Origin: Celeribacter indicus
Lineage (GTDB): Bacteria > Pseudomonadota > Alphaproteobacteria > Rhodobacterales > Rhodobacteraceae
Direction of reading: 5' to 3'
Length of the DNA: 64,000 nt
NCBI RefSeq assembly: GCF_000819565.1
Contig: NZ_CP004393.1
Coordinates: 1,364,001 to 1,428,000 of the forward strand
The notes under the pieces were generated by a model. It was not told where the DNA came from, searched no databases, and saw only the letters and a list, made by a program, of their open reading frames with translations. Below are positions 16,026 through 62,316 of the stretch, piece after piece (within the stretch, counting starts at the first letter, position 1; each line of letters starts with the position of its first letter). Position numbers and translations under genes: made by a program.

Positions 16026-17305
16026 TTTCCGCTCTGCTCTTTATTCCGTTCCTCGTTATGCTTCTGGTGTCGGTGCCGATCGGCATCGCCTTGGGGCTGG
16101 CTTCGACGCTGGCGCTGTTGGTCAGTGGCAAGGTGAGTTCGAGTTATATTGCACAGGGGCTTGTCACCTCGATTGACAGCTTTCCTCTGATGGCGGTGCC
16201 CTTCTTTGTGCTCGCGGGCGATCTCATGGGGCACGGTGGCCTGTCCAAACGGCTCTTGAAGGTCGGGCTTGTCCTCTTCGGGCGCTATTCCGGTGGCTTG
16301 GCGATCATCGCGGTTGTCACCTGTATGTTCTTTGCCGCGATCTCCGGTTCCGGTCCGGCCACCGTGGCCGCTGTTGGCGCGATCCTGATGCCCGCGATGG
16401 CCAAAGGGGGCTATCGCCCGCCCTTCACTGGCGGGCTTATCGCCTCTGCGGGGAGCCTCGGGGTCATCATCCCGCCGTCGATCCCGATGGTGATCTATGC
16501 CACGTCGGCCAATGTCTCCGTGACCAAAATGTTCATGGCCGGTGTCGTGCCGGGGGCTCTGATCGGCATTGCTCTTATCGTATATGCCTGGTTCCAAGCG
16601 CGCCGCGAAGGCATCGAACGCAGCACGGAACGCCATAGCTTCAATGACATCGTCGTCACCATCTGGGAGGCGAAATGGGCCCTCATGGTCCCCGTCCTGA
16701 TCTTAGGCGGCATCTATGGCGGTGTCTTCACGCCCACAGAGGCCTCCGCGATCGGCGTGATCTATGGCCTCATCGTTGGGCTTTTCGTCTATCGCGAATT
16801 GAAATTCTCGGACCTGCATCACATTTTTGCGTCCTCGGCGCTCACCTCGGCCACGATCATGCTGATCGTCGGGGCCGCCACGATTTTCGGGCGCGTTTTG
16901 GCGATCGAGCGCATCCCGGTGATGATGGCGGACTATATCACGCAACTGGTGAGCAACCCGCTGATGATCCTTATCCTGATTAACCTGCTGTTGCTGGTGG
17001 TGGGCACATTCATGGAGACGCTCGCCGCGATCATCATCCTCACCCCAATCCTGTTGCCGGTCGCCGCCGCGTCTGGGGTGGATCCTGTTCACTTCGGCAT
17101 CGTTATGATCGCCAACCTCGCGATCGGCATGGTGACGCCGCCTGTGGGTGTAAACCTCTTCGTCGCGTCGCGTGTGGGCAATATCCCGTTGGAAAGATTG
17201 ATGCGCTCCGCTGCGCCTTTCCTAGTGGTGATGCTCCTGATCCTCGCGTTGATCACCTATGTGCCCGCTCTGTCTCTCGGCCTGCCGGCCCTCTTCGGAA
17301 TGTAA
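16022..17305 (+). CDS. TRAP transporter large permease (DctM family)
   Basis: A 427-residue polytopic membrane protein with about 12 helices and typical DctM motifs: SFPLMAVPFFVLAGDLM, ISGSGPATVAAVGAI, and PPSIPMVIYA. It is the sodium-coupled translocation subunit working with the DctQ- and DctP-like proteins encoded just upstream (ATGA overlap with the former). Confidence 0.95.
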   Translation: MISALLFIPFLVMLLVSVPIGIALGLASTLALLVSGKVSSSYIAQGLVTSIDSFPLMAVPFFVLAGDLMGHGGLSKRLLKVGLVLFGRYSGGLAIIAVVTCMFFAAISGSGPATVAAVGAILMPAMAKGGYRPPFTGGLIASAGSLGVIIPPSIPMVIYATSANVSVTKMFMAGVVPGALIGIALIVYAWFQARREGIERSTERHSFNDIVVTIWEAKWALMVPVLILGGIYGGVFTPTEASAIGVIYGLIVGLFVYRELKFSDLHHIFASSALTSATIMLIVGAATIFGRVLAIERIPVMMADYITQLVSNPLMILILINLLLLVVGTFMETLAAIIILTPILLPVAAASGVDPVHFGIVMIANLAIGMVTPPVGVNLFVASRVGNIPLERLMRSAAPFLVVMLLILALITYVPALSLGLPALFGM

Positions 17306-39450: not shown

Positions 39451-39777
39451 ATGAGCAAGACAACGAACAAATATTCCCCTGAAGTGCGCGAGCGAGCGGT
39501 TCGTATGGTTTTGGACAACGCCGGTCAGCATGAGAGCCGCTGGCAAGCGATCGTATCGATCTCGGCGAAGATAGGCTGTTCGACGAACACGCTGAATGAC
39601 TGGGTCAAAAAGGCAGAGATTGATCGTGGCGACCGTGCTGGGGTCAGTACCGAGATGGCCGAGAAGATGAAGGCGCTGGAGCGCGAGAACCGCGAACTCA
39701 AGCAGGCGAATGAGATCCTGCGGAAGGCGTCGGCGTATTTTGCGATGGCGGAGCTCGACCGCCGACCGAAGTCATGA
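39451..39777 (+). CDS. IS3-family transposase OrfA
   Basis: A 108-residue DNA-binding subunit with an HTH ([19 protein letters not shown]) and a C-terminal leucine-zipper-like coil ([18 protein letters not shown]). It belongs to the IS3 OrfA family. The stop overlaps the OrfB start (ATGA), and OrfB is in the -1 frame, so a fusion by frameshifting or coupled translation is possible. I see no obvious slippery A-tract at the overlap. Confidence 0.95.
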
Positions 39778-40673
39778 TCGCCTTTATCGACGATTATCGT
39801 GGAGAGCTCGGGGTCGAGCCGATCTGCAAGCACCTGCCGATTGCCCCGTCCACATACTACGATCATCTGGCCAAACGGGCCGACCCTGATCTGCGCTCGG
39901 ATCGGTTCAAGCGCGACGACGAGCTTCGCCCCGAGATCGAGCGCGTGTTCGATGAGAATTACAAGGTCTATGGCGTGCGCAAAGTCTGGCGCCAGATGCG
40001 GCGGGAAGGATTTGATGTGGCCCGATGCACGATAGCCCGGTTGATGAAGGATTTGGGCCTGCAGGGCGTCATCCGGGGCAAGCCGCATAAAACGACGATC
40101 CCTGACAAGAAGCAGCCGTGCCCGATGGACAAGGTAAACCGGCAATTCCGGGTGCCGGCACCGAACATGCTCTGGGTCAGCGATTTCACCTATGTCGCCA
40201 CCTGGCAAGGGTTCGTTTATGTGGCATTCGTGATCGACACGTTCGCGCGCCGGATCGTTGGGTGGCGCGTCAGCCGCACGGCTCACACAGGCTTCGTTCT
40301 CGACGCTTTGGAACAGGCTGTTCATCAGCGGCAGCCTGGTGTGGGACTGATCCATCACTCAGACCGCGGATCGCAATACCTGGCGATAAAATACACCGAA
40401 CGCTTGGCCGAGGCAGGAATCGAACCCTCGGTCGGCAGCGTCGGTGACAGCTATGACAACGCTTTGGCCGAGACAATCAATGGTCTCTTCAAGGCGGAGG
40501 TCATCCACCGCCGTGGCCCGTGGCGCAGTCTGGACGCCGTGGAATACGCCACTCTGGAATGGGTCGACTGGTTCAACAATCGCCGCCTCCTCGAGCCCAT
40601 CGGGAACATCCCACCAGCGGAAGCAGAGGCAAACTTCTACGCAGCTCTGGTAACTAAGACCATAGCCGCATAA
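39774..40673 (+). CDS. IS3-family transposase OrfB (DDE integrase)
   Basis: A 299-residue rve-type catalytic subunit with an HTH_21 region ([20 protein letters not shown]) and the DDE triad in [17 protein letters not shown] and the Glu of [14 protein letters not shown]. Complete by length and motifs, hence probably functional. It catalyses cut-out and circle-mediated integration of the element with OrfA. Confidence 0.96.
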
Positions 40674-59042: not shown

Positions 59043-59081
59043 GCCGCCCACGGCGACGGTGATCGAGATCACCCGCAGGGC

Positions 59082-59121
<40 letters not shown>

Positions 59122-59180
59122 GGAGCTCTGAGCGGCGAAGGCGCTGAAACTAAAGGGTTCCTCCAGAGCCCGCTTGCATT

Positions 59181-59362
<182 letters not shown>

Positions 59363-59409: not shown

Positions 59410-60162
59410 CTATCTCCTCTCCAAGTCATGGCCGACGATGGATCGCAAGAGTTCATACACTTCGACACGACTGGAACTCGCAGATGCAGAGCGAAGCAGC
59501 TTGTCAAAATTTACCAGCAAGGCGGAGTTCCTGCGGGGATTCAGCAGCAGACAATCAGACCACACGTCCAGCTCGCCTTCGATGGACGAGGCATACTTCA
59601 GGACCCAGTACATCAGGACCTGCCGGAAGTCGCCCGAAACAAAGTTCCGGTCCGTATGTTTCACCTCGATCAGAATGCTTCCTAGGGAGAAATCCGCCGC
59701 CCCGGTTGCGATCCACCCCATCCCCGGGATCGCCGGGCTGGCCTCCAGCTTGAATTTGGGGTGCTGCTCCTGCACACCCCGCAGCATCACGACAAGGTTT
59801 TGAGCCGAGTGCTCTGCAACCTGCTTGTCACATTCAGCTATAGCCGCCGGCACCTTGGCATCATAGTGCCTGCCCTGCCGCTTCGCTGCGACCCGCAAAC
59901 AGTCGTCCCAATCAGGTTCCGGCTTCCCGGAAAGGAGGCGCTCCGCACGGACGATGGCCAATTCAAACAGCATCGCCTTCTGAAGGGCGCTCTGCGCGAC
60001 CAGCTCGTCAGGAACAGCAGCTAAGCCTTCAAATGTGAAAGCTCTCCGGTTGAGGGATGCCACGAGCCCGCCGCTCAGGCGTGGGAACAGCACATCCAGA
60101 ACCCCAGGGATGTCCCGCGCAACGGTTCGTGGGTCCCGAAAAGGGAGCCGCCTAAGCGCCAT
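59410..60162 (-). CDS. PD-(D/E)XK nuclease-like protein, partner of the reverse transcriptase
   Basis: A 250-residue protein. Residues 150-190 carry a PD-(D/E)XK-type nuclease core: D157 in GAADFSLG, then E166-V-K168 in ILIEVKHT, and a following helix with Gln (DFRQVLMYW). The rest is helical with no recognised domain. Its ATG overlaps the end of the reverse-transcriptase gene by 11 bases, so the two proteins are made together and probably act together. No close family is recognised. The pairing with an RT suggests an effector of an anti-phage system; this is inference. Confidence 0.75.
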   Translation of the reverse strand: MALRRLPFRDPRTVARDIPGVLDVLFPRLSGGLVASLNRRAFTFEGLAAVPDELVAQSALQKAMLFELAIVRAERLLSGKPEPDWDDCLRVAAKRQGRHYDAKVPAAIAECDKQVAEHSAQNLVVMLRGVQEQHPKFKLEASPAIPGMGWIATGAADFSLGSILIEVKHTDRNFVSGDFRQVLMYWVLKYASSIEGELDVWSDCLLLNPRRNSALLVNFDKLLRSASASSSRVEVYELLRSIVGHDLERR

Positions 60163-61780
60163 TTTCTGACCACTTCACAAAACAGCCTGCGAACGTAGGC
60201 CCGTTGTTAGGTTCAAAGCCAAGACGCCATGCTTGTCCGAGCGAACGGCGAAGCTGATACCTTGTCTTCTCACCTTCCTCACCGAAATCTCCCGCCGCCA
60301 ACCAAAACATGCGCTGTTCATCTGGGCTCAGGTTCTGCCACTGGTTTCTCAGGCGGTTAAAGCTCGCCCTGTCGGGCCATTGGCGCCAGCAATCAATGCA
60401 AGCGCGCTTTACAGCAGGAGAAGAACTGTTGTCGAATACGCGCCGGACATATGCCCCCCTCGCATCTGTTCGTGCAAAGCGTATCGCGCGCAGATAGTGC
60501 AAGTTGTTCGCCTCTGGCATCAGGAGGTGCGGTGCTGACTGCGGCACTTGGTCAAGAAGATCGTCAATCTGCTTGAACACGGCTGCAAAATCAGCGTTCG
60601 CTCGAACCGAGTAGACACCACGCATTATCTTGGACCACGAGGCCCGGAATGAATCCAAGTTCTTTGGATCCAGCAGTGTGGCACACAATTGAGCAGCGAC
60701 CTTTGGCTCTTGGAACTTCAAGGCGCGACCGATCTGCGCAAGAACGAAACTGTCAGGCTGCGACTTCTCCTTTTCAAGGTCGAGCAGGAACTGGACATCT
60801 ATGTCATCAAATGACTTCTTTAACTGTTCATACTCCGTGTTAGCCGCATCCGAGTAAGGATCGAAGTGCAAATCAAGTTCGCGCAGGGCAACGCTCGCGT
60901 CCTCACCATCCCCCAACTGTGCAGCCACATAGTCCGAGTAGTGCTTGGCACTCAAAATGGTCGTCTTGGTTCTATTCAGCGAAAGTCCATAGTCAGCAAG
61001 CGCGTGGGACAGGACCGAAAGCGCCTTGTATGCATCGTGCTGGGAACTGCATATCAAAGTGAAGTCGTCAACGTAACGATGCCATACGATGCCAGCGTCT
61101 GAAAGCGACCTGTCAATTGGCGTCATCATCACTTCTGCCAAGATACGCGCGCATTGGCCGCCGACAGGAAGTCCGAAGGACCGGCCAGCCGCAAGTTTGC
61201 TTAGGATGCGGTCAACCTGCACCGCAACCGTCGAGTTTGCAGCGCCTAGATCGCGGATGACATTCTCAAGCCGGTGATGGTAGATGTGTTCATAGAAGCT
61301 CGAAATGTCTGTCTGCACTACAACAGTGCCAGCCGCTTTCAGTGCTTCCTCCGCAAGCGTGGCCTCTTTGTAGGTTCGCCAAGACCTTGTTCTGTCGAAG
61401 TAGGAGAGAGCTTCTCCACCCAGCCTGTAGGAGTGTGCCCTCGGACTGCGGTTCGGCTCGTTTGCCTCAGCAATAGCAATGCCGAGTCCATTCAAATAAA
61501 GATTCCAAAAAGGGTGAATTCTTGTGGTTATCCTAAATCCATGGGAACCCGAGGGAGTCAGCAAGCGCTCAGATCCAATCGTCAGCTCATTCACATAAGC
61601 AGCCGCATTTTTCTGATTTTTCGCATTTATTGCTTCAAACAGACTAAAGCAAATAACTGAGAAATCTTCGGCCCGATCTCGAATGAAGGCGGCGTCAATA
61701 TCGTAAGGTAAGGTATCGTTCTCGCCGCTCTGCCCTATTTCCAGTGCGGCTCGTCTAAAGTGATCTTGGGAAACGTGCAA
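60152..61780 (-). CDS. Reverse transcriptase of the defence-associated (Abi/UG-like) type
   Basis: A 542-residue protein. The RT core is at about residues 85-280: motif A VVVQTDISSFYEHIYHH (D158), GLPVGGQCARILAE (203-216), and the catalytic YVDD (236-239) followed by LNRTKTTIL. There is no maturase, integrase or endonuclease domain as in group II intron proteins. The C-terminal 250 residues are helical, as in Abi-type and DRT reverse transcriptases. Its nearest relatives by eye are the unknown-group RTs of defence islands. It is followed by an overlapping nuclease-like gene and preceded by a 536-base non-coding region. Confidence 0.85.
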   Translation of the reverse strand: MHVSQDHFRRAALEIGQSGENDTLPYDIDAAFIRDRAEDFSVICFSLFEAINAKNQKNAAAYVNELTIGSERLLTPSGSHGFRITTRIHPFWNLYLNGLGIAIAEANEPNRSPRAHSYRLGGEALSYFDRTRSWRTYKEATLAEEALKAAGTVVVQTDISSFYEHIYHHRLENVIRDLGAANSTVAVQVDRILSKLAAGRSFGLPVGGQCARILAEVMMTPIDRSLSDAGIVWHRYVDDFTLICSSQHDAYKALSVLSHALADYGLSLNRTKTTILSAKHYSDYVAAQLGDGEDASVALRELDLHFDPYSDAANTEYEQLKKSFDDIDVQFLLDLEKEKSQPDSFVLAQIGRALKFQEPKVAAQLCATLLDPKNLDSFRASWSKIMRGVYSVRANADFAAVFKQIDDLLDQVPQSAPHLLMPEANNLHYLRAIRFARTDARGAYVRRVFDNSSSPAVKRACIDCWRQWPDRASFNRLRNQWQNLSPDEQRMFWLAAGDFGEEGEKTRYQLRRSLGQAWRLGFEPNNGPTFAGCFVKWSENGA

Positions 61781-62316
61781 AGCATTGCCCTCATTGCTGC
61801 ATCAGAACTTGCAGCCTACGCAGCAGCGTGTTCTTTCCGCAATCATTGCAAGAGTATAGGGAGAAAGTCTAGAGTGACGGCCTGCGCGAAGCCGCGATCT
61901 TGACCGCCGGGCTGCCTGTGACCTCCCCACAATATTTCATACCCCGAAAGGGCTTTTCGAGTGTCCCAAAGGGGGGCCCAAGGAAACTGGGCTCACGATC
62001 AGATCAGGAATGCCCCCCGTTTCCGGTCGATTTCGGGGTAGCCTCCTATCCCATTTGCTCAAGACACTGGCGTAGAGTAGGGTTCGCCTAGGGCTGACGA
62101 AAGCGTTGGTCCTGGGGCGTCGTAACCCCGCCGCAAGCGGCTGGTGCTGGCCGCAACAAGCACCTCCTCAGCCTATGGCCGGGGAGGCTGCGACGTATGT
62201 CCAGGGCTCCGGCCTAAAGGTCGTGGCGGTCGTCTTGCGGCGGCTTACGAACTCCCCGGTCACCAGAGCAATGCTTTGGTGACCATTTCGGGTCAATATC
62301 TCTGGGGAGTAATCAA
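61781..62316. ncRNA. Structured non-coding region upstream of the RT gene (candidate ncRNA/promoter)
   Basis: A 536-base gap without a supported gene, rich in inverted repeats. The clearest is GGTCACCAGAGC/GCTTTGGTGACC (62258-62284), a 12-pair stem with an AAT loop and a following T-containing stretch. Others lie at about 62125-62200. Defence RTs of some classes use an RNA encoded directly beside the RT gene as template, so an RNA here is plausible. The region also has to hold the promoters of both divergent flanking genes. No RNA family is recognised. Confidence 0.35.

Follow-up and report, generated by a model that had tools for sequence, protein, structure and literature searches.

A DRT8 gene pair in Celeribacter indicus

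We analysed a 64,000-nucleotide stretch of the Celeribacter indicus genome (contig NZ_CP004393.1, positions 1,364,001–1,428,000; hereafter, the window), whose minus strand carries an overlapping pair of genes for a DRT8 reverse transcriptase (RT) and an RT-associated PD-(D/E)XK nuclease. The RT gene (60152–61780) encodes 542 amino acids from a predicted TTG start, the nuclease gene (59410–60162) encodes 250 amino acids from an ATG start, and the RT stop and nuclease start overlap by 11 bases (60152–60162), as an initial annotation of this DNA had read them. Because the reading frames overlap, we infer that RT and nuclease are carried on a single shared transcript.

The same annotation had suggested that this might be a new defence operon, a novelty that did not hold: PADLOC already contains both genes, as Drt8 and RTasPDDEXK, and DRT8 is described in PMC12596737, the introduction of which characterizes it by a PD-(D/E)XK domain. 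The Drt8 profile matched the RT at 503 bits (model positions 2–491 of 493), with UG21 the second-best PADLOC model at 112 bits, a ranking shown for the window RT only, and RTasPDDEXK matched the partner at 240 bits (model positions 2–223 of 226); on these scores, a new DRT class was rejected. By family membership the pair is a defence operon, and the locus is a clean, intact new example of a class already described, with the same RT and the same PD-(D/E)XK partner and with no difference in kind found, its host and mobile-element context being its own; the original DRT8 survey is reportedly that of Mestre et al. 2022. Antiphage activity of DRT8 has been reported at the family level, and DRT8 is listed among the DRT types with unresolved mechanism (PMC13213688 and PMC13314766). 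Cap17 with PNP and SLOG-type domains is also listed for DRT8 (PMC10952713), and partners other than the PD-(D/E)XK protein may have been reported for this class.

A predicted class 1-type RT with conserved linker tyrosines

The RT contains TDISSFYEH, GLPVGGQ and YVDD, all of which the initial annotation had picked out, in a core with D158, D238 and D239; this is followed by a linker with FDPYS (306–310) and Y317, and then by a C-terminal all-helical region. For comparison, we collected 76 related loci in a scan taking one genome per species, from which 52 RT loci and 51 nuclease loci were each aligned with the window, leaving out cut, split and frame-broken copies as well as several intact near relatives (for example, L046, L067, L070, L077, L079 and L083). 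D158, D238 and D239 were unchanged across all 53 aligned RTs, every one of which matched Drt8 at E ≤ 1e-3. Y309 and Y317 in the linker were likewise unchanged in 53 of 53, and FDPYS was exact in 46 of these. The linker motif FDPYS...Y is a candidate priming site and possibly a new detail of DRT8.

In the predicted structure the RT was all-helical beyond about residue 290 and could be aligned from end to end with enzymes of the class 1 type (DRT6, DRT4, Abi-P2 and AbiK). The model has the class 1 UG/Abi trait of an alpha-helical repeat domain after the RT, as in AbiK and Abi-P2; a Pfam search at E ≤ 1 gave HEAT_2 in the RT below threshold (13.3 versus 27.7). We placed the RT by profile scores and fold, the fold suggesting a class 1-type enzyme. 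Identity to DRT6 and DRT4 was 13–17% in the full-length fold alignments, and these are described as single-gene systems in PMC13213688, whereas here a nuclease is paired with the RT.

That the RT might belong to another class, such as group II introns or retrons, with the neighbouring nuclease incidental, is scarcely credible. The general RVT_1 domain (65.6 bits, Pfam) and the closeness in fold of group II intron RT cores would suit this idea, but the group II intron model TIGR04416 reached 66 bits where its cut-off is 300, the retron St85 model NF038233 45.9 against 235, further retron models 19 against 600 (NF042941) and 11.5 against 450 (NF038237), and the Drt4 equivalog NF041749 83.8 against 450. 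On these curated cut-offs, we rejected the RT as a member of group II introns, of retrons or of DRT4. Neither intron nor retron RNA was among the Rfam matches, and the partner is kept in 66 of the 76 loci. Scores with the NCBIfam Drt3a, Drt3b, Drt5 and Drt2 models were also far below their cut-offs. The view taken in the initial annotation, of a defence-type RT with a nuclease partner, is supported, and the RT is neither an intron nor a retron RT.

A stand-alone nuclease with a predicted DNA-end nuclease fold

The nuclease core that had been noted as D-x8-EVK is present as D157-x8-E166-V-K168. D157, E166 and K168, together with Q181 and Y185, were unchanged in all 52 aligned nucleases, window included, and no cysteine was found among the invariant columns. 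No Pfam family was found in the 250-amino-acid protein at E ≤ 1, and a PDB sequence search with the nuclease alignment gave E values of only 0.35 and 0.62. Its predicted fold was moderately like the nuclease domains of AddAB, AdnAB, MGME1 and Cas4, suggesting an AddAB/AdnAB/Cas4-like enzyme that acts at DNA ends. Identity to the nuclease domains of AddAB/AdnAB, Cas4, MGME1 and Dna2 was about 9–14%, and the partner here is a stand-alone protein.

The gene pair is conserved but patchily distributed

The RT had 1068 homologues at E ≤ 1e-40 among 7997 candidates scored, and the nuclease 841 at E ≤ 1e-3 among 3665 candidates; because of these numbers, we do not take the RT and nuclease observation for chance. 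The conserved neighbourhood that the initial annotation had proposed to look for was found: in 66 of the 76 loci, the RT gene is followed on its own strand by that of the nuclease. Seven of the other ten leave their contig within the RT (L094, L096, L097, L101, L107, L111 and L112), and three are N-terminal RT pieces on contigs that continue (L105, L106 and L109), apparently decayed DRT8 copies. Of the 66 loci having both genes, 63 had reading frames that overlapped by 4–38 nt, 30 of them by exactly 11 nt, lengths that depend on the rule for choosing starts. RTs were split or frame-broken in the three exceptions (L059, L068 and L090), and nuclease frames were, by our reading, short in five of the 66 loci (L039, L049, L059, L090 and L099). 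In L068 (1426–3885), about 2.5 kb splits the DRT8 RT after residue 371, probably through insertion of a mobile element. A distant Drt8-model match, L003, had 28% identity to the window RT; read by eye, its adjoining open reading frame keeps the EVK, RQLLTY and NPRR pattern, with a 4-nt overlap.

The distribution of DRT8 is patchy. Of 394 genomes sampled from the family, 82 matched Drt8 at E ≤ 1e-3; the match was strong (E < 1e-140) in three, one of them being the window's own, and stood at 6e-47 or weaker in the remainder. At the genus level, 3 of 20 genomes matched at E ≤ 1e-3 and only the window's own at full length. Among plasmid records, 93 had a match and three (H1–H3) covered at least 80% of the query, whereas phage records gave four RT matches covering 22% of the query and no full-length match. 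The sole locus from the viral collection IMG/VR (L113) is a DRT8 RT relative with 49% identity. In Rhizobium sp. C104 (L034, 887–4935), the DRT8 pair adjoins an annotated ABC-three component system and an AAA ATPase, possibly another defence system.

DRT8 is cargo of an element at a host tRNA-Thr

The operon lies tail to tail with an intact plus-strand tRNA-Thr (GGT; 59218–59292), and a partial copy corresponding to the 5′ half of the gene stands further left (59077–59128, plus strand). The tRNA-Thr scar of the initial annotation calls for a more precise reading: the broken copy continues the host flank known from same-genus relatives, and the intact copy is placed at the left end of an inserted element or within that end. 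In those relatives the flank left of the partial tRNA runs straight into a single whole tRNA-Thr, the 3′ half of which matches the far end of the element. The uninterrupted site was identified by coordinates in seven genomes (G394, G395, G396, G397, G399, G403 and G404) and read directly in G397 (L131); in G260, G398 and G400–G402, it was the intact copy to which the tRNA aligned. Beyond the window, just past an integrase gene (genome C1 1434728–1434775), there is an exact 48-bp repeat of the 3′ half of the intact tRNA-Thr (59247–59294). Because relatives carry the uninterrupted site and the far end carries the 48-bp repeat, we conclude that an element of about 11.5 kb is integrated at the host tRNA-Thr, with DRT8 as cargo beside its left end.

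Two readings of the left end fit. In one, insertion was into the host gene at 59111–59128, the element bringing a complete tRNA-Thr with it; in the other, an earlier duplication of the tRNA provided a second copy, which the element then entered as such elements usually do, restoring it. The roughly 9 kb beyond the RT encodes a terminase-small-like protein, a resolvase/invertase, a primase-polymerase-like protein (Prim-Pol/phage primase) and the integrase (element genes and beyond, L116:4320–19255; genome C1 1426320–1441255), and the element is perhaps phage-satellite-like. Past it lie genes for luciferase-like monooxygenases and an ABC transporter.

In a close relative, L037 (RT 95% identical), a tRNA-Thr, nuclease and RT block neighbours a gene that looks murA-like by eye; its homology with the window reaches 172 bases ahead of the RT and 193 bases beyond the nuclease. 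A repeat that would mark a second attachment site was not found in L037. A general association of DRT8 with tRNAs was rejected, since ARAGORN found a tRNA in only 8 of 60 DRT8 loci scanned and, by coordinates, only four had one within 1 kb of the pair (L037, L048, L088 and L093), L037 alone having tRNA-Thr(GGT). The locus is also an instance of DRT8 carried by a small element that sits at a host tRNA-Thr.

An upstream element in some alphaproteobacterial loci

Ahead of the RT on the minus strand, 92 nt from its start codon, lies CTAGACT-N15-TGCAA (61846–61872; genome C1 1425846–1425872). The motif that some alphaproteobacterial members share reads CTRGAC(W)-N15-TGCAA. In 21 hand-aligned upstream regions, several of them picked by eye, CTRGAC was near-invariant. 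When 77 upstream regions were scored, including the window and plasmid loci L033–L035, 13 matched CTAGACA-N15-TGCAA at 10 or more of 12 chosen positions where shuffles expect 0.6, statistics that are optimistic in that the sequences scored are those from which the consensus was derived and close relatives (L034 and L050; the window and L037) are among them. All 13 matches were alphaproteobacterial and lay 72–96 nt ahead of the RT start; this level was reached by none of the beta- or gammaproteobacterial loci, and many alphaproteobacterial loci also fell below 10 of 12 (for example, L040, L042, L045–L048, L052, L063, L072 and L074). In the 5.0-Mb genome the pattern occurred at two sites, the window's included, against one for a reversed control, which makes an ordinary genome-wide promoter unlikely.

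An undetected non-coding RNA (ncRNA) template, as in DRT2, DRT3 and DRT9, with the upstream element as part of that RNA, would be in keeping with an element shared by 13 of 77 regions and rare in the genome, yet we consider it quite improbable. Folding of 14 of the 21 motif-aligned upstream stretches found two clearly stabler than shuffles (z of −2.35 and −3.10) and 12 with z from −0.92 to +2.14; no common structure was apparent among the 14. No Rfam family matched at the operon or its upstream region, the element falls below 10 of 12 positions in the beta- and gammaproteobacterial and many alphaproteobacterial loci, and the full-length RT fold is like that of class 1 enzymes. Because these stretches lack a shared stable fold, we favour a putative control site over an ncRNA; CTRGAC-N16-TGCAA in some alphaproteobacterial DRT8 members is possibly a new detail.

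A possible mode of action

We hypothesize that the operon would act as an anti-phage system, carried as cargo of a small integrative element, in which the RT starts DNA synthesis on a residue of its own, with Y309 and Y317 in the linker as candidates, and then synthesizes DNA with no nucleic acid as template. The predicted DNA-end nuclease would act with this product: during infection, the RT–DNA product may recruit or release the nuclease, which would then cut down phage and/or host DNA, leading to abortive infection. This reading, of a DRT8 system with self-primed, untemplated synthesis and the nuclease as effector, is the one we consider probable, with considerable room for doubt; what we show is that the pair belongs to the family, keeps its active-site residues and is conserved with its overlap, together with predicted folds, and the mechanism is inferred. 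The predicted folds serve here to point to specific residues and to a nuclease type.

A nearby precedent is DRT1, a class 3 system in PMC13275509, in which an RT making template-free, self-primed DNA is tied to an enzymatic effector. DRT1 differs in having a nitrilase domain within the same protein in place of a separate nuclease.

The nuclease might, alternatively, be a built-in safety device that clears the RT's toxic DNA in healthy cells, so that phage interference with it lets DNA accumulate and growth stop. We think this possible but rather less than likely: the conserved overlapping pair and the AddA/AdnA/Cas4-like predicted fold of the partner would suit it, but in other RT defence systems, some retrons for instance, the nuclease partner is the effector. 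Further in its favour, host nucleases restrain RT products elsewhere, DRT3 being synthetic lethal with RecBCD loss and DRT9 with ExoI loss (PMC13174585).

A more specific, self-contained 'write and erase' module can also be pictured, in which a class 1 RT would prime untemplated DNA on an FDPYS...Y tyrosine and its own AddAB/Cas4-like end nuclease would take the part that the host's RecBCD or ExoI plays for DRT3 and DRT9; phage attack on DNA-end nucleases would trip the system, which in some alphaproteobacteria would have a dedicated upstream control element. In this full form we regard it as speculative and fairly unlikely.

Other features of the window

ARAGORN predicted a selenocysteine tRNA at 16390–16485, which was absent from the Rfam matches at gathering score. 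At 39732–39848, Rfam matched the ALIL pseudoknot (RF01497, 108.7 bits), a type of programmed-frameshift element known from insertion sequences.
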